DNA of 64,000 nucleotides from Actinacidiphila cocklensis (GTDB lineage Bacteria; Actinomycetota; Actinomycetes; Streptomycetales; Streptomycetaceae): contig NZ_CAJSLV010000048.1 of the NCBI RefSeq assembly GCF_907177275.1, positions 62,001 to 126,000 of the forward strand, read 5' to 3'. The notes beneath the pieces were generated by a model. The model saw only the letters and a program-made list of their open reading frames with translations, had not been told where the DNA came from and did no database searches. Of the stretch, positions 48,567 through 60,962 are shown in pieces; within the stretch, counting starts at the first letter, position 1; each line of letters opens with the position of its first letter. The position numbers were made by a program, and so were the translations under genes.

Positions 48567-50729
48567 TTACTTTCTCTTGGACCGTGCGCCGTTGCCGGCG
48601 CCGCGGCCGTTGCCGGCACCGCCGCCTTCTTGCTCGGCGACCGCGTTGTCGTACCGCTCGTAGGCGTCCACGATGCGTCCGACCAGCTTATGGCGCACCA
48701 CGTCGGTGCTGGTGAGCCGGGAGAAGTGGACGTCCTCGACGCCGTCGAGGATGTCCTGCACCTGGCGCAGCCCGCTCTTGGTCCCGTTCGGCAGGTCCAC
48801 CTGCGTGACGTCACCGGTGATGACGATCTTGGAGTCGAAGCCGAGCCTGGTCAGGAACATCTTCATCTGCTCGGCGCTGGTGTTCTGCGCCTCGTCCAGG
48901 ATGATGAAGGCGTCGTTGAGAGTGTTGTGCGTCAGCAGGTAGTCCTCGGTGACGTACAGCGAGTCGGCCGCAGCGACCTGAATGCACACCGCCTCCTCTC
49001 GCCCGGCGGGCTCGATGCTGTCGATGAAGCGCATCGGGCGGCCGCCGCCGCCGGCCGCTTGGTACATCTCCCGCTTGCGGGCCAGCCGGAAGGGCTCCAC
49101 GCCTTCGGGCAGCCGGATGTCGAGAACGTGCGCATCGTAGCGGTGGTGCACATCGCGCCCGTTCACCCGGCCGGGCTTGCGCCCTTCCGCAGCCCTGCGA
49201 CGGGTGTACGCAACGCCGCCCAGGGACTGGACGAGGGCCACCACGTCGTCGCGGAGGAGGCTCGACGTGGTCGTGTACTGCACGCGGCAGGTCCGGCCGG
49301 TCTGGACGACCGGGCCGCCGTCGGCATCCAGCAGGCCCTGGAGCACGGCCAGCCGGACCTCGGCGGAATTCTGCAGGTAGGCCTCGGGCACGAACTTCGC
49401 GTGCGACCCGTTGCCGAGCAGGTCCAGCGACCGGAGTGCGGCAGTGACCGGATTCTCCAGCGTGATGACGCCGCCAGGTGCGCGTACCCGGTTCAGGGTG
49501 TAGTCGACCCGGTCCTTCCAGTTCACCTCGACGCCGGGAAGCGCAGCTTGCAGAGCCGCGACCAGCTCGGTGTCCGCCGTGGCGAAGGAGGGCGTGGTCG
49601 ACCCGGTGAGACAGCCGTCGCCGAGCAGCAGCCCCAGGGCGTACGGGTCCATCGGAACGTCCTGGACCGGGAAGCACACCGGAGCGGTGAGCAGCGGCAA
49701 CTCGTAGCGCCGCGCGTGCGCGGCTCGGAGGTTGCCGATCATCTCCTTCGTCTCAAAGACGCGCCACGGCTTGTCGCGACGGCGGTCGGCAGCGGTGCGG
49801 ACCGTCCAGAGATGGTCCCCGCAGCACAGGGTGGAGGACCCGTCCTGGGCCGTGACGCGGTAGATGTCCTTCTCGCCCTGCGGATACACGCCGAGCACCG
49901 GGGTCGGCTCGCCGTTCGACCCGATGACCAGGTCACCGACCTGCAGGTCCCCGATGGGGCGGAAACCGGAGGGCGTCAGCACCTTGGTGAACACCGGCTG
50001 TGCACGGCCGCGCATGTACGCCAGCGGGGCGACCTCGATGGTGCCGGCCGCCATCAGGCGGGGGATCGAGTCCGGGTCGAGCATGTCGTGCAGGGCGTCG
50101 TAGAGCGGGCGCAGATACGGGTCGATCTTCTCGTAGAGGGTGCCGGGCAGGAAGCCCAGGCGCTCTCCGGCCTCGACCGCGGGGCGGGTCAGGATGATCC
50201 GGTTGACCTGCTTGGACTGCAGGGCCTGGACCGCCTTGGCCATCGCCAGGTACGTCTTGCCGGTACCGGCGGGGCCGATGCCGAACACGATCGTGTGGCG
50301 GTCGATCGCGTCGACGTACCGCTTCTGGTTGAGCGTCTTGGGGCGGATGGTGCGGCCGCGGTTGGACAGGATGTTCTGGGTGAGCACCTGGGCGGGCGTC
50401 TCGGCGTCCTGGTCGGCGGCGCTCCCGTTGGCCCGCAGCATGGCGATGGAGCGTTCCACGGCGTCCTCCGTCATGGGCTGGCCGGTGCGGAGCACCAGCA
50501 TCATCTCGTCGAAGAGCCGCTGGACGAGGGCCACCTCGTCGGCATCGCCGACCGCGCTGATCTCGTTGCCCCGGACGTGGATGTCGACGGCCGGGAAGGC
50601 CTGCTCGATCACGCGGAGGAGAGCATCGCCAGATCCCAGGACGGTCACCATGGGGTGCTTGGCCGGTACGACGAAGTGGGCGCGCGCCTGCGGCGGCTGC
50701 GGCTGCTGCTTTGTCGGTGTCTGAGTCAT
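48567..50729 (-). CDS. phoH: PhoH-like ATPase interrupted by an in-frame intein
   Basis: 720-codon frame. The exteins total 360 residues, a normal PhoH: residues 1-242 carry [20 protein letters not shown] (Walker A), [17 protein letters not shown] and [10 protein letters not shown]; residues 603-720 carry [20 protein letters not shown] (Walker B DEAQ) and [20 protein letters not shown]. Between them is a 360-residue intein (243-602), so ATPase function needs protein splicing. PhoH proteins are RNA-associated ATPases of incompletely known role; here it heads the ybeY operon. The C-terminal tail is Gly/Asn-rich. Confidence 0.95.
48924..50003 (-). mobile_element. Class 3-like intein with LAGLIDADG homing endonuclease, in PhoH
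   Basis: Intein of 360 residues at the junction YMRGR/TLNDAF, just before Walker B. Residue 1 is Ala, not Cys/Ser. Block B reads CCGDHLWTV, with His64 and, two residues on, Trp66. Block F has [14 protein letters not shown] with Cys340. Block G ends YLLTHN with Thr358, and the next extein residue is Thr. This Trp-Cys-Thr set is the mark of class 3 inteins, which start splicing from the block F cysteine. The endonuclease has both dodecapeptides: [13 protein letters not shown] and [12 protein letters not shown]. It is likely mobile into intein-less phoH alleles. Confidence 0.93.
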
Positions 50730-56018: not shown

Positions 56019-56396
56019 TCAGATCGGTGCGTCTCGCGTGGCAGCCCGCGACATGGCCCGCGCGCGTGCCGCGGCGGCTATCGCGGCGACCCAGCGCTGC
56101 TCGCGGAAGGAGGACATCTGTTCCTCGGCGCGATCCTGCAGCGACCGCCAAAGATCCGCCCTGGTCCAGGCGGTGAAGCGGCGGTGTGCGGTGGCAGGTG
56201 CGACATCGAAGCGTGGCGGCAGCTGCCGCCACGGACACTCCGACATGAGCACGTAGACGACGGCGGTGAAAACCTTGCGCTCGTCCACCGGGGCGGTACC
56301 CCCGCCCTGGCGGCGGAAGCCGAGGGCCGGGAGCAGCGGCTCCACCAGTTGCCATAAGTCGTCCGTCACCAATCTCTGAGCCAGATCAAATCCCAT
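56019..56396 (-). pseudogene. IS5-type transposase remnant (N-terminal part only)
   Basis: 125-residue frame with the N-terminal domain of IS5/IS4-group transposases: LVTDDLWQLVEPLLPALGFR, VFTAVVYVLMSECPWRQLPP and TAHRRFTAWTRADLWRSLQD. The DDE catalytic core that should follow is missing; the frame ends in an Ala/Arg-rich tail. No terminal inverted repeats were seen. It borders the RiPP-like locus and is probably a scar of an insertion event. Confidence 0.8.
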
Positions 56397-56803
56397 GCGA
56401 CACCGTTAAAACATTGTTCCCATTGAACACAGCCACGTGAGACACCTTCCCCGTCGAAGACTCCCGTCCATTCCGGGACCACCGCCGACTATGGCACCGG
56501 GATCGCGCCGCCGTCCATCGGTCCTCCCTCATCACGGAACGCGAATAAGGCTTTCCCCAATACCTTTTGATCTTGACTGGATGCCCCCTGCCGCCTTCCC
56601 TGCGCCCCGTTGACACGCTTCTGTGTTCCATGCAAATCTGGCGGAGCCGGGGACAGGCGCAAGGCACTGTTTCCCGATAGGACAGGTGAGTGCACCATCA
56701 AGTGGCCGACGCATTCCCTTTTCTTTCCGAGTCCCCCGAGAAATCGGGCCGCCGCCGAATTATCGGACGGCGAAGTGCACCGCCCTGAGAGAAGGAGTCC
56801 GCC
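56397..56803. other. Lower-GC spacer before the RiPP-like genes
   Basis: 407 bp with no credible gene. Its base composition is visibly more AT-rich than the window average (for example TTAAAACATTGTTCCC and AATAAGGCTTTCCCC), which suggests foreign origin. It must contain the promoter of the peptide gene; I cannot place it with confidence. A GAAGGAG ribosome binding site ends the spacer. Confidence 0.5.
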
Positions 56804-56887
56804 ATGAAGAAGATCACCGTCCGCAAGGCCGGCACGGTCCGTCTGACCTCGGCCGCCGCCTCGGCCTACTGCTGCGGCGCCAGCTGA
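56804..56887 (+). CDS. Candidate RiPP precursor peptide, 27 residues
   Basis: Starts at ATG 56804 behind GAAGGAG with eight-base spacing. A basic leader-like half, MKKITVRKAGTVRLT, is followed by a small-residue stretch SAAASA and the C-terminus YCCGAS. Length, leader/core layout, paired cysteines and a downstream PqqD-like (RRE) protein fit a ribosomally made, post-translationally modified peptide. A hairpin starts right after the stop. I do not recognise the precursor family. Cysteine modification, AxA-type processing and the final structure are all unknown. Confidence 0.65.
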   Translation: MKKITVRKAGTVRLTSAAASAYCCGAS

Positions 56888-56924
56888 GCCGCCGGCCCGG
56901 GCCGCCTGCCTCACGGCCGGCGGC
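56888..56924. promoter_or_regulatory. Stem-loop directly after the peptide gene
   Basis: GCCGCCGGCC (56888-56897) pairs perfectly with GGCCGGCGGC (56915-56924), 17-base loop. It begins at the base after the stop codon. Such hairpins between a precursor gene and its processing genes often act as leaky terminators or stabilisers that keep precursor mRNA in excess. Confidence 0.65.
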
Positions 56925-57003
56925 CCGGGCCGCCCACGTCCCGACCCGCACAGCGCGACCGCAGACCCCGCAGCAGCCCGCGACCCGTAGCAGTGAGGCA
57001 GAC

Positions 57004-58233
57004 ATGGCAACGGTTTCCCCGGATCTCGACCAGCCGGTGCGGCTGCATCCGCTGACCTACCTGGAGGAGGGCGACGAGGTCACCGTGGGGCGCGCGGACA
57101 TCGACTCCTACGGGCTCTTCCCGGTCGACGGCGCCGCGCTGCTGCGCCGCCTTGAGGCCGGCGAGTCGCCCAACGCCGCCGCCCGCTGGTACACCGAGCA
57201 GTACGGCGAGCAGGTGGACGTCGCCGAGTTCCTGGAGGTCCTGGAGGAGCTGGAGCTGCTGGTCAAGGACGGCGAGCAGACGGCGCAGGCGACAGGCCCG
57301 GTGCGCTGGCAGCGCCTGGGGCGCGCGCTGTTCTCCCCCGTCGCGTGGGCCTTCTACGGCCTGCTGGTCGCCGCGGCGGCGGCCGCCGTGATCCGCACCC
57401 CCGAGCTGTTACCGCGCTACCAGCACCTGTTCTTCACCCACTCCTCGCTGGTGGTGCTCACCTTGGGCATCGTGCTCGGCCAGGTGCCCTGGATCCTCGC
57501 GCACGAGGCCTTCCACGCCCTCGCCGGCCGCCGGCTCGGCCTGCGCTCCACCCTCTCGATCGGCCGGCGCTTCTACTACGTCGTCTTCGTGACCGCGCTG
57601 GACGGGCTGGTGGCCGTGCCGCGCCGCAAGCGCTACCTGCCGATGCTGGCCGGCATGCTGCTCGACGTCCTGGTCGTCTGCGGCCTGACGCTGGGCGCGG
57701 CGGGGCTGCACGGCAGCACCGGCGCCGCAGGCGTCGTCCACCGGCTGCTGCTGTCCATGGCCTTCGCCGTCGTACTGCGGCTGGCCTGGCAGTTCTACTT
57801 CTTCCTGCGCACCGACCTGTACTACCTGGCGATCACCGTCCTGGGCTGCAACGACCTGCAGACCGTGGCCCGCCAGCAGCTGCGCAACCGCGTCGTACGG
57901 CTGCTGCGCAGGCCCGAGCGGGCGGTCGAGGAGTCCGGCTGGACCGACCGGGACCGCGAGGTCGCCCGCTGGTATTCGTGGCTGATGGCGGCCGGTTACG
58001 TGTTCCTGACCACGACCCTGCTGACCGCCGTCATTCCGACCGGCATCAAGGTGACGCGGATGGCCGTGCACAAACTCGACGCGAATCTCTCGCCGGCGAA
58101 TATCGCCGACGTGATCGTCTTCCTGATCCTCAACTTCGGCGAGCTGTTCCTGGCCGGCTATCTGGCCGCCAGGAGCTGGCGGCGCAGGAACAGGGCGACG
58201 GCCCCCGCCTCGCCCCCGCCGCAGACCGCCTGA
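57004..58233 (+). CDS. PqqD-like (RRE) domain fused to M50-type membrane metalloprotease
   Basis: 409 residues. Residues about 10-90 (VRLHPLTYLEEGDEVTVGRA, DGAALLRRLEAGESPNAAAR) form a PqqD-like winged-helix domain, the type that binds RiPP leaders. The rest has about six membrane helices. The zinc motif is HEAFH (167-171) in LGQVPWILAHEAFHALAGRR, and Asp271 in FFLRTDLYYLAI is the likely third ligand, as in YydH-like putative peptide zinc metalloproteases. It may bind, cleave and help export the 27-residue peptide encoded 116 bp upstream. The start ATG 57004 follows GAGG. Confidence 0.82.
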   Translation: MATVSPDLDQPVRLHPLTYLEEGDEVTVGRADIDSYGLFPVDGAALLRRLEAGESPNAAARWYTEQYGEQVDVAEFLEVLEELELLVKDGEQTAQATGPVRWQRLGRALFSPVAWAFYGLLVAAAAAAVIRTPELLPRYQHLFFTHSSLVVLTLGIVLGQVPWILAHEAFHALAGRRLGLRSTLSIGRRFYYVVFVTALDGLVAVPRRKRYLPMLAGMLLDVLVVCGLTLGAAGLHGSTGAAGVVHRLLLSMAFAVVLRLAWQFYFFLRTDLYYLAITVLGCNDLQTVARQQLRNRVVRLLRRPERAVEESGWTDRDREVARWYSWLMAAGYVFLTTTLLTAVIPTGIKVTRMAVHKLDANLSPANIADVIVFLILNFGELFLAGYLAARSWRRRNRATAPASPPPQTA

Positions 58234-58341
58234 CCCGCCCGGTCCGCAGGGCCGCCGCGCGCTCCCGCACCACGCAGATCACGACCGACGGACGGCACCG
58301 GCAGCGCGCTCGCGAGCCGGCCCGTGGAAGGAGAACGCCGC

Positions 58342-60435
58342 ATGGACCAGGCAGAGTTCCGCCACCACTGGGTGCACGGAGGCTCACGACGGAGCCGGGC
58401 CGACGCCGTACGCTCGCTTGCGGCTCCGCCCGCGCTCCTGCCGTCAGGACTGCCCGTCGACGCGCACCGCCGGCTGCGCGGCCCGTACACCGCGGCCAAC
58501 ACGGTGGTGCGGGCGCTGGTGCCCGAGGTACTGCGGCGCGACGCGGCCCCGGTGCGCCGCTACGACATCGAGGTGCTGTCCGTGGCGCCGGAGTTGGGCG
58601 ACCAGGTCCCCAACTCGCGCGAGACGCTGACCTCGATGGCGCTCCCCGCCGAGCGCACCCGCTACTACGCGCGGCTGCGGACCAAGCGGATCGCCAACGG
58701 GCTGGCCGAGTTCGTCCGTGACGCGCTGCCCTCCGACGGGCCGCGCACCCTGGTGGTGGAGAACGCCGAGCACGCCGAGGCCACCGACGTCGAGTTCATC
58801 GCCGCGCTGGTGCGGCGGGTGGACCCGGCCCGCCTCACCGTCGTGGTCTGCTGCGGCGGGGACGGAACGGCGCTGGACGAGCGGCTGCGGTCGGTCCTGG
58901 AGGCCCGCGCGCTGGAAACCGCCGTCGTGGCAGGGCCGTCCGCGCCGCCGGGCCAGGACGCCTGGTCGTACGTGAGCGGCGAGTGCCTGGCCGAGGAGCC
59001 CGCCACCCGCGCCGCCTACGAGGCGCTCACCCCTGCGGAAAGGGCCGCGCTGCACGACCGCAGGGCCGCGGAGGTCCTCGCGGTGGGCGACTTCTCGTAC
59101 GGCCTCGGCGCCGTCCCCTTCCACCTGGAACGCGGCAGCGACCCCGTCGGCGCCGCCCTTCCCGTGCTTCTCGCCGCTGCCGACCACTGCCTGGTGAACG
59201 GCTTCTACGACGCGGTCGTCGACTACGGCACCCGGGCTTTCGCGCTGCTCGACGGCACGGGGGACGACGCCCTGTGGTGGAAGTTCGCCGTCAAACAAGG
59301 ACTGGCGCTCTCGATATTGTCGCGGACCCGCGAAGCCGAGGAAATCTACGACCGGGCAAGACTTCTGTCCACCGACCCTGCCGTGCATTTGGCGTGCTCT
59401 TATTCCACGGCAATGCTCTACACCCGGCATAATGACCCGGCCGACCGCGACGAGAAGAAGGCGAAAGCCCTGCTGAACGGCGCGGTCGCGACTGCGTCGC
59501 TGCTGCCCGACCGGGTCGAGCGGGCCTTCCAGAGCGCCTTTTACAAAAACGGTCGCGCACTGGTCGAAGTCAATCTCGGCGACCCCGCGGAAGCGCTCAG
59601 GCTCGTGACCGAGTGCGTCGACGACCTCGACAGGCAACTGGAACCCGACGAGCACCGCCTGCACCGCTCGGTGCTCAAGAACAACCGCGCCCGCGTCTAC
59701 ACGGGACTGGGCCGCCTGGACGAGGCGCTGGCCGACTACGCCGTCGTCATCGAGCAGGACCCCAACCACGCCGAGCACTACCTCGAACGCGGCAACATCC
59801 TGCGGCGGCTGGGCCGCACCGAGGAGGCACTGGCCGACTACGCACGGGCGATGCGGCTGTCCCCGCCCTTCCCCGAGATCTGCTACAACCGCGGCGACCT
59901 GCGGCTGTCGGAGGGCGACACCGCCGGCGCGCTGGCCGACTTCGACTACGTCATCGACCTGGAGCCGGACTTCGTCGACGCCTACGTCAACCGGGCCGGG
60001 CTGCACCTGGACGAGGGCCGGCTCGACGCCGCCCGGCAGGACGCCGAGACCGGACTCCTGCTCGACGCCGACAACGCCTACCTGCACGTGGTCGTGGGCC
60101 AGGTGCACGCCGAGGGCGAGGACCTCGCCGCAGCCGAGGACGCGTACGACCGGGCCGTCGCGGCCGATCCGAGCCTGGTCACCGCGCTGTCCGGGCGGGC
60201 CGCGGTCCGCTTCGAGAGCGGCCGGACGGACGCCGCGCTGGAGGACATGCGCCGGGCGGTGGAGCTGTCCCCCGACGACGCGGCACTGCGCTACAACCGG
60301 GCGTTCCTCCACCAGGCCCGCGAGGAATGGGACAGCGCGCTGGCCGACCTGGAGGTCGCGGGCGCCCTCGCCCCCGACGACGAGGACATCGTCGCCGCCC
60401 TGAAGACCTGCCGCGTGAAGACAGGCCGGGCGTGA
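58342..60435 (+). CDS. TPR protein of the RiPP-like locus
   Basis: 697 residues from ATG 58342 with AAGGAG eight bases upstream (a GTG at 58324 is also in frame). The first about 270 residues include a segment like the Walker-B part of LuxR/AfsR-type ATPases (RTLVVENAEHAEATDVEFIA, LTVVVCCGGDG), but no P-loop is visible. About seven tetratricopeptide repeats fill 440-690 (ALADYAVVIEQDPNHAEHYL, RGNILRRLGRTEEALADYAR). Codons around 59290-59590 are unusually AT-rich. It overlaps the flavin reductase gene by GTGA. It is probably a scaffold or regulator of the locus; function unknown. Confidence 0.75.
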   Translation: MDQAEFRHHWVHGGSRRSRADAVRSLAAPPALLPSGLPVDAHRRLRGPYTAANTVVRALVPEVLRRDAAPVRRYDIEVLSVAPELGDQVPNSRETLTSMALPAERTRYYARLRTKRIANGLAEFVRDALPSDGPRTLVVENAEHAEATDVEFIAALVRRVDPARLTVVVCCGGDGTALDERLRSVLEARALETAVVAGPSAPPGQDAWSYVSGECLAEEPATRAAYEALTPAERAALHDRRAAEVLAVGDFSYGLGAVPFHLERGSDPVGAALPVLLAAADHCLVNGFYDAVVDYGTRAFALLDGTGDDALWWKFAVKQGLALSILSRTREAEEIYDRARLLSTDPAVHLACSYSTAMLYTRHNDPADRDEKKAKALLNGAVATASLLPDRVERAFQSAFYKNGRALVEVNLGDPAEALRLVTECVDDLDRQLEPDEHRLHRSVLKNNRARVYTGLGRLDEALADYAVVIEQDPNHAEHYLERGNILRRLGRTEEALADYARAMRLSPPFPEICYNRGDLRLSEGDTAGALADFDYVIDLEPDFVDAYVNRAGLHLDEGRLDAARQDAETGLLLDADNAYLHVVVGQVHAEGEDLAAAEDAYDRAVAADPSLVTALSGRAAVRFESGRTDAALEDMRRAVELSPDDAALRYNRAFLHQAREEWDSALADLEVAGALAPDDEDIVAALKTCRVKTGRA

Positions 60436-60962
60436 CCACCGCCGAGCCGGCCGTGCACGGGGCGGCCGGCCCGGCGGGGCACCCGCTGCACGGGCCGGCC
60501 GGGCAGCGTGCGCTGCGCGATGTGCTGGGCCGCTACGCCACCGGCGTCGCGGTGGTCACCACCTGGCACCAGGGGCGGCCGGCCGGCGTCACCGTCAACT
60601 CCTTCACCTCGGTGTCCCTGGACCCGCCGCTCGTCCTGTGGTGCCTGAACGCCTCCTCCGGCAGCCGGTCCGCCTTCACCCGCGCCGAGCACTTCGCGGT
60701 CAACGTGCTCGCCGCGGACCAGGGCGACCTGTGCACCCGCTTCACCCGCCCCGGCGACCGCTTCGCCGGCCTGCCGGTGCACACCGGCCCGCACGGCCTG
60801 CCGCTGCTGCCCGGCGCGGTCGCCGTCCTGCTGTGCCGCCGCGCCGGCCTCCTGCCGGCCGGCGACCACCTGCTGCTGCTCGGCGCCGTGACGGACCACA
60901 GCATGTCCCCGGGACCCGCGCTGCTGTTCGCCGACGGCGGCTACCACACCGGTCCCGGCTAG
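60432..60962 (+). CDS. Flavin reductase-like FMN-binding protein
   Basis: 176 residues of the split-barrel flavin reductase family (HpaC/ActVB-like). Signature segments are YATGVAVVTTWHQGRPAGVT, NSFTSVSLDPPLVLWCLNAS and FAVNVLAADQGDLCTRFT. It would supply reduced FMN/FAD to an oxygenase, or act on its own. The GTG overlaps the TPR stop, so it belongs to the same transcript as the RiPP-like genes. No partner monooxygenase is in the window. Its end overlaps the convergent Tricorn gene by four bases. Confidence 0.86.
   Translation: MTTAEPAVHGAAGPAGHPLHGPAGQRALRDVLGRYATGVAVVTTWHQGRPAGVTVNSFTSVSLDPPLVLWCLNASSGSRSAFTRAEHFAVNVLAADQGDLCTRFTRPGDRFAGLPVHTGPHGLPLLPGAVAVLLCRRAGLLPAGDHLLLLGAVTDHSMSPGPALLFADGGYHTGPG

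Follow-up and report, generated by a model that had tools for sequence, protein, structure and literature searches.

A conserved leader peptide encoded with an RRE-site-2 protease and a TPR protein in Actinacidiphila cocklensis and related actinomycetes: a candidate new RiPP class or peptide-signalling cassette

Introduction

RiPP precursors can usually be recognised by a fixed leader followed by a variable core. Short peptides are also released by site-2 proteases in firmicutes, where S2P/TPR pheromone systems combine the Eep protease with RRNPP receptors. In the daptides, the precursor MpaA is accompanied by MpaP, an RRE-site-2 protease assigned to leader removal, and the family signature consists of an ELExMEAP leader motif and a C-terminal Thr (PMC10036551). 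The present study concerns a cassette of Actinacidiphila cocklensis in which a short peptide gene precedes genes for an RRE-site-2 protease, a TPR protein and a flavin reductase. This cassette is a candidate for a new RiPP class or for an S2P/TPR peptide-signalling cassette.

Results and Discussion

Organisation of the cassette in the window

Analysis of the window, i.e. the whole stretch of 64,000 nucleotides examined in this study, confirmed in the sequence all four genes described in an earlier note on this DNA, each on the + strand. The features are as follows.

56791..56797, + strand: ribosome binding site GAAGGAG, read directly, ending 6 bases before the ATG
56804..56887, + strand: gene for a 27-aa RiPP-like precursor, leader MKKITVRKAGTVRLT(S) and core about (S)AAASAYCCGAS, with the leader kept in 77 distinct precursors and silent-only variation among four species
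56893..56932, + strand: GC-rich hairpin between the precursor and protease genes, -43.2 kcal/mol
57004..58233, + strand: gene for a 409-aa protein, an RRE (residues 10-89) joined to a site-2 (M50-type) intramembrane metalloprotease, assigned from its model, fold matches and invariant residues
58342..60435, + strand: gene for a 697-aa protein with a degenerate AAA_16/STAND-like domain and a long TPR superhelix, downstream of 91/92 leader-motif sites
60432..60962, + strand: gene for an HpaC/FerA-like flavin reductase, PF01613 (E 3e-38), accessory, directly downstream in 32/96 loci with the M50 and TPR genes

The ribosome binding site of the tiny gene had been described as strong, and the GAAGGAG reading agrees with this; AGGAG-type sites at similar spacing stand ahead of nearly all related precursors. 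The hairpin, earlier called perfect, is present and is near-perfect, since it is built of 14 bp, one mismatch, 3 bp and a 4-nt loop. A strong hairpin follows the 3' end of the precursor gene at 80% of related loci (z < -2; median z -3.5). Lying between the precursor and protease genes, it is a probable leaky terminator or mRNA stabiliser, by which the output of precursor would exceed that of protease. The flavin reductase gene starts with GTG and shares a GTGA overlap with the TPR gene, to which it is translationally coupled.

Genes flanking the cassette encode PhoH, PfkB, GH4, acid phosphatase, metallo-beta-lactamase fold, HIT, DUF4096 and tricorn-type protease proteins. The metallo-beta-lactamase fold protein, the HIT protein and the DUF4096 transposase-type fragment form the upstream flank, and the tricorn-type protease, on the opposite strand, the downstream flank. 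As these flanks are ordinary, the cassette is taken to consist of four genes only. The DUF4096 (IS4/5-type) transposase fragment (56019-56396, - strand) is also found at loci L033, L048, L053 and L009; its position and orientation are kept across the five orthologous loci, which is unusual for a decaying insertion. The PhoH-like ATPase gene (48567-50729, - strand) is interrupted by an in-frame intein-like insert; its two PhoH halves are separated by Hint-type and LAGLIDADG_3 matches.

A conserved leader and a hypervariable core

The window precursor, MKKITVRKAGTVRLTSAAASAYCCGAS, has 27 residues and recurs without any residue change in three other species of the genus. A check of the frame for stops and frameshifts in related strains, proposed in the earlier note, returned silent changes only in these three close relatives. 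A total of 99 precursor sequences, 77 of them distinct, were collected. Codon variation in this set was greatest at third positions. Comparison of the 77 distinct precursors revealed the leader consensus M-K-K-I-x-(V/I)-R-K-x-G-x-(V/I)-R-L-T, in which R-8, G-5, L-1 and T0 are invariant. Past T0 the sequence becomes a hypervariable core of 9-24 residues, with an entropy of about 2-3.5 bits at most positions. YCCGAS, CYCPS, LYGGPPCDVA, ALYLPWDCMVQV, TMYGCNCAAV, YYCCSAL, CSIYKNPN and CTNYGYGNCCCI are examples among many others. Neither YCCGAS nor a conserved CC is supported as the defining feature of the family, as the cores are hypervariable and CC is not conserved. The short peptide itself holds up as a RiPP-like precursor: a short sequence with a conserved leader and a variable core, in 77 distinct members, is what RiPP precursors in general present.

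Tyr and Cys were both found in 76 of the 77 main-set precursors. Their presence was considered as an obligatory property of the core and is only a near-rule, broken by L109/L110 (core GTASVIHKG) and L143 (SAPFSHQPAIVPV), whose divergent cores contain neither Tyr nor Cys. Two to four tandem precursors, mostly with different cores, occur at L035, L057, L079 and L082. The L143 copy (NZ_CP109482.1) is plasmid-borne, with several transposases around a precursor-like gene that ends in SAPFSHQPAIVPV. Near precursors of the ALYLPWDC type (L064, L066, L070, L073, L075, L077, L078 and others) a recurrent trio was observed, consisting of an HTH_31 protein, a protein with the HExxH motif LLHEVGHL and a DUF6545 protein.

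An RRE fused to a site-2 protease

The protein encoded at 57004-58233 had been read as a PqqD-like domain joined to a membrane part with HEAFH. Our analysis identified it as an RRE fused to a site-2 protease and as an almost constant neighbour of the precursor. Its AlphaFold2 model has a pLDDT of 94. Residues 10-89 adopt the RRE topology of three beta strands followed by three helices (E18-22/E25-30/E35-40/H41-51/H56-67/H73-82), i.e. the fold found in RRE-dependent RiPP systems. The best fold matches are the leader-bound lasso RREs TbiB1 and TfuB1 (Z 9.3, 2.3-2.4 angstrom, 22-23% identity); the same two proteins are the only PDB sequence hits of the protease-family profile, at weak E-values (TfuB1 0.07, TbiB1 0.11). 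For the membrane part the best membrane-protein matches are SpoIVFB (Z 9.1) and RseP (Z 8.9), and the next unrelated membrane proteins score Z < 5. HEAFH occupies residues 167-171. Among 69 homologues H167, E168, H171 and D271 are invariant, and D271 would be the third metal ligand. The protein thus combines an HExxH motif in a membrane helix with a putative third-ligand Asp, as expected of site-2 (M50) proteases.

There is good support for a RiPP-type precursor served by an RRE-dependent leader peptidase, in which the RRE would bind the leader and the protease domain cleave it. A search of NCBIfam gave no hit for the window protease, and in a RefSeq plasmid record the protease is annotated as 'hypothetical protein'. 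Distant RRE-M50 homologues (L124, L125, L126 and L144) adjoin ThiF-type adenylyltransferases. These neighbours point to another peptide-modification system using the same protease family, which would then serve more than one peptide system.

Co-occurrence in actinomycete genomes

Two routes were used to find related loci. Homologues of the protease were sought and the regions upstream inspected, and every homologue first inspected had a short upstream gene whose first half was the same as in the window. Independently of the protease, actinomycete genomes were searched with a DNA pattern for the leader only. This pattern matched in the family (61 of 298 genomes) and in the class (11 of 394), compared with 5 + 4 = 9 hits for the reversed pattern in the same two genome sets. 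Within the window's genus 19 of 35 genomes carry the motif, and within another genus of the family 28 of 70 do. At the 92 leader-pattern sites a TPR gene lies downstream on the same strand in 91 and an RRE-M50 gene in 89, with both partners at 89/92; the median spacing from the precursor to the M50 gene is 112 bp. The peptide gene and its partners are real, far beyond chance. That such proteases are never found next to short genes of this type, the outcome that would have told against the earlier proposal, is not the case: the 89 same-strand sites place a putative maturation protease with an RRE fold next door to the precursor, as in RiPP systems generally. The co-occurrence proposed for the partner genes holds for the TPR gene (91/92); the flavin reductase is directly downstream in 32/96 loci.

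Some sites deserve separate mention. L107 was rejected as a member of the cassette; it is a chance match of the DNA pattern inside a long frame, with neither TPR nor protease gene. Leader-type precursors with the core GTASVIHKG lie at L109:8621-8695 and L110:8739-8813, with the TPR gene directly after, followed by a gene from a cluster containing a major-facilitator-like protein; the RRE-M50 protease was not found anywhere in these two genomes. The distant member L140 comes from a fragmented assembly, on a contig of 4.2 kb, and 38 other genomes of its class are without the protease, so this contig may be misplaced.

The TPR protein and a possible signalling role

Of all partners of the precursor, the TPR protein, under-rated in the earlier note, is the most constant (91/92 sites); it is present even where the protease is missing, at L109/L110. 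Its model has a pLDDT of 96. The N-terminal domain gives a partial AAA_16 match (E 0.0012) in which the Walker A part is missing; a Walker A was not seen in the protein. The TPR part forms a long superhelix closest to OGT and consensus TPRs.

This constancy favours a reading of the locus as a peptide-signalling cassette, in which the site-2 protease would free a short pheromone, as Eep does in firmicutes, the TPR protein would be its cytosolic receptor, an analogue of the RRNPP sensors, and any tailoring would be secondary. The degenerate STAND-like domain with TPRs resembles actinomycete STAND regulators. Distances between cores track those between TPR proteins beyond the share of the protease (partial r 0.19 vs 0.12), and leader distances track the protease more (0.20 vs 0.10); these partial correlations are weak and their permutation test ignores phylogeny. 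They hint weakly at a TPR protein that follows the core and a protease that follows the leader. Regulators recur nearby, such as BTAD/SARP (26 loci) and HTH_31 (14) proteins and others, but regulators are common neighbours in these genomes. Furthermore, the TPR protein showed no DNA-binding domain, the precursor is without a signal peptide, and the RRE suggests leader-directed maturation. We regard a signalling cassette as possible, with tentative confidence. It overlaps the reading of the locus as a compact RiPP-type system; the two differ in what the peptide is for and in what the TPR protein does.

Flavoenzymes and LanD-type neighbours

A total of 96 loci carry both the protease and the TPR gene. 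A same-strand gene follows the TPR gene within 400 bp (<=400 bp) in 52 of them, and this gene is flavin-linked in 40 of the 52: 32 encode a PF01613 flavin reductase, five a PF00724 OYE-type protein and three a PF03358 FMN reductase. No tailoring enzyme is universal across the loci, and hence the product of the window cassette need not be modified. Consistent with the earlier note, no radical SAM, YcaO or lanthionine synthetase gene was seen among the annotated recurrent neighbours.

The earlier note had named a flavin-dependent change at CC among the possible chemistries. In this reading the flavin reductase, or an enzyme fed by it, would oxidise or cross-link the CC thiols of YCCGAS as the class-defining step. 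Its translational coupling in the window and in many relatives, the OYE-type or FMN reductase that takes the same place elsewhere, and the Cys and Tyr of nearly all precursors would fit such chemistry. However, about two thirds of the loci have no flavin reductase directly downstream, most cores have no CC, and no flavin-dependent monooxygenase partner is encoded beside the cassette. The core CYCGGTPVLA is accompanied by a flavin reductase, whereas the near-identical CYCGGGPVLA (Streptacidiphilus loci L087, L089, L091 and L093) is not. The flavin reductase is therefore not supported as a core part of the system, and flavin chemistry at CC as its defining step is unlikely.

The clearest link between a neighbour and a core was found for another flavoprotein, a homologue of the LanD/MrsD-type cysteine decarboxylases (PF02441; best PDB match MrsD, E 8e-20). 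Its gene lies divergently upstream at six of the eight loci with a C-terminal-Cys core, and none was found at loci without a C-terminal Cys. The six cores are LYCTDCC (twice), LYCGSCC, LYSPDGC, SYILTVC and SYVLVVC. The sixth locus, L132, was predicted before inspection and is a close relative of L083; all six form one clade, and the correlation does not represent six independent events. C-terminal Cys as an absolute predictor of LanD was rejected, since L122 and L128 are without it. LanD enzymes decarboxylate C-terminal Cys, and tailoring of the core is therefore likely in this clade. A LanD-type decarboxylase together with a C-terminal-Cys precursor, the combination that marks lanthipeptide/AviCys pathways, is present at these six relatives and not at the window, where the core ends in Ser, no LanD homologue is encoded and the flavin reductase is the sole flavoenzyme.

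Proposed mechanism and remaining alternatives

Overall, our analysis suggests that the cassette is a compact RiPP-type system in which the RRE binds the leader, the protease cuts, the TPR protein binds the peptide and flavoenzymes tailor it in some lineages; we consider this probable. Conservation, co-occurrence, folds and catalytic residues were computed; that the RRE binds the leader, that the protease cleaves, what the TPR protein does and whether the core is modified are inferences. The ribosome would produce a precursor of 25-40 residues whose leader is fixed (MKKIx(V/I)RKxGx(V/I)RLT-S) and whose core is hypervariable. The N-terminal RRE of the protease would capture the leader, which probably joins it as an extra beta-strand in the manner of lasso-peptide RREs. 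Cleavage by the site-2 protease near the leader/core border would free the core at the membrane. Core or precursor may then be bound by the TPR protein, which would act as a chaperone, a tailoring scaffold or a receptor. Tailoring would depend on lineage: in one clade a LanD-type enzyme would decarboxylate the C-terminal Cys, and in others the flavin reductase, OYE-type protein or FMN reductase would act. The LanD-type and flavoenzyme neighbours lend indirect support to modification of the core. For the window, the predicted product is a short YCCG-containing peptide with at most flavin-linked redox chemistry or a disulfide.

The system is very probably a peptide natural product or a peptide signal, with about a hundred related clusters. 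A bolder version, which we offer as speculation, takes the RRE-guided intramembrane protease and the STAND-derived TPR protein as the sole invariant machinery of an undescribed ribosomal-peptide class. The hypervariable, mostly Tyr/Cys core would be a private intercellular signal (or a redox or metal ligand) read by its own TPR protein, and flavoenzymes would decorate it by lineage.

Two further explanations were weighed against the RiPP-type reading. A divergent daptide pathway would account for the shared RRE-S2P fusion, and three of the 69 protease homologues match the NCBIfam family daptide_HExxH (best E 2.7e-5). Membership of the window peptide in the daptides was rejected, as its leader lacks ELExMEAP and its end is not Thr; no oxidative decarboxylase, aminotransferase or methyltransferase is encoded beside the window cassette, and no MpaB-, MpaC-, MpaD- or MpaM-type enzyme was found in its flanks. 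A daptide origin is very improbable. That the frame, with only 27 codons and no library family, is a chance ORF next to an unrelated protease gene can be dismissed, given the silent-only variation, the leader kept in 77 distinct peptides and the near-total co-occurrence.

Novelty and significance

A Pfam and NCBIfam search of 38 precursors identified no family. In the full-text literature, no searchable paper was found with the leader or the gene set; supplementary tables, e.g. the decRiPPter candidate precursors, lie outside such a search, and an earlier listing there is possible. The logic of RRE and site-2 protease is known already, and the leader family with its obligatory TPR partner is undescribed in the searchable literature, which makes this plausibly a new RiPP class. 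RiPP mining tools mostly seek known chemistry, and a cassette without any is easily missed. About a hundred precursor/partner pairs are now on offer for the study of cut-site choice by RRE-site-2 proteases and of the handling of a short peptide by a TPR protein. If the TPR protein is a receptor, actinomycetes would possess a peptide-signalling system built differently from that of firmicutes.

Comparison with known systems

The lasso-peptide RREs TbiB1 and TfuB1 provide the closest solved fold for the N-terminal domain of the protease. Unlike lasso-peptide systems, the cassette has its RRE fused to a protease, and no lasso cyclase or C39-like peptidase was seen. The LanD/MrsD/EpiD cysteine decarboxylases are represented by the homologue adjoining six relatives with a Cys-ending core, in contrast to the window, with its Ser-ending core and no such enzyme; a lanthionine synthetase was not seen. 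The firmicute Eep/RRNPP systems share the set of short peptide, site-2 protease and TPR protein, a functional likeness only, whereas the cassette has a precursor without signal peptide, an RRE, and a TPR protein without DNA-binding domain.

In the epipeptides (YydF/EpeX; YydH/EpeP) an M50 membrane protease likewise matures a small peptide, and 2/69 homologues match NF058609 weakly. The precursor is different, however, and no radical SAM epimerase was found beside the window cassette or among the annotated recurrent neighbours. YydH-like proteases had been cited in the earlier note; the architecture of the daptide protease MpaP is closer. The cassette differs from the daptides in its leader motif, in its peptide end, which is not Thr, and in the TPR protein as constant partner, and it shares with them an actinobacterial origin, a short precursor with a conserved leader and an intramembrane site-2 protease that carries an RRE at its N-terminus.
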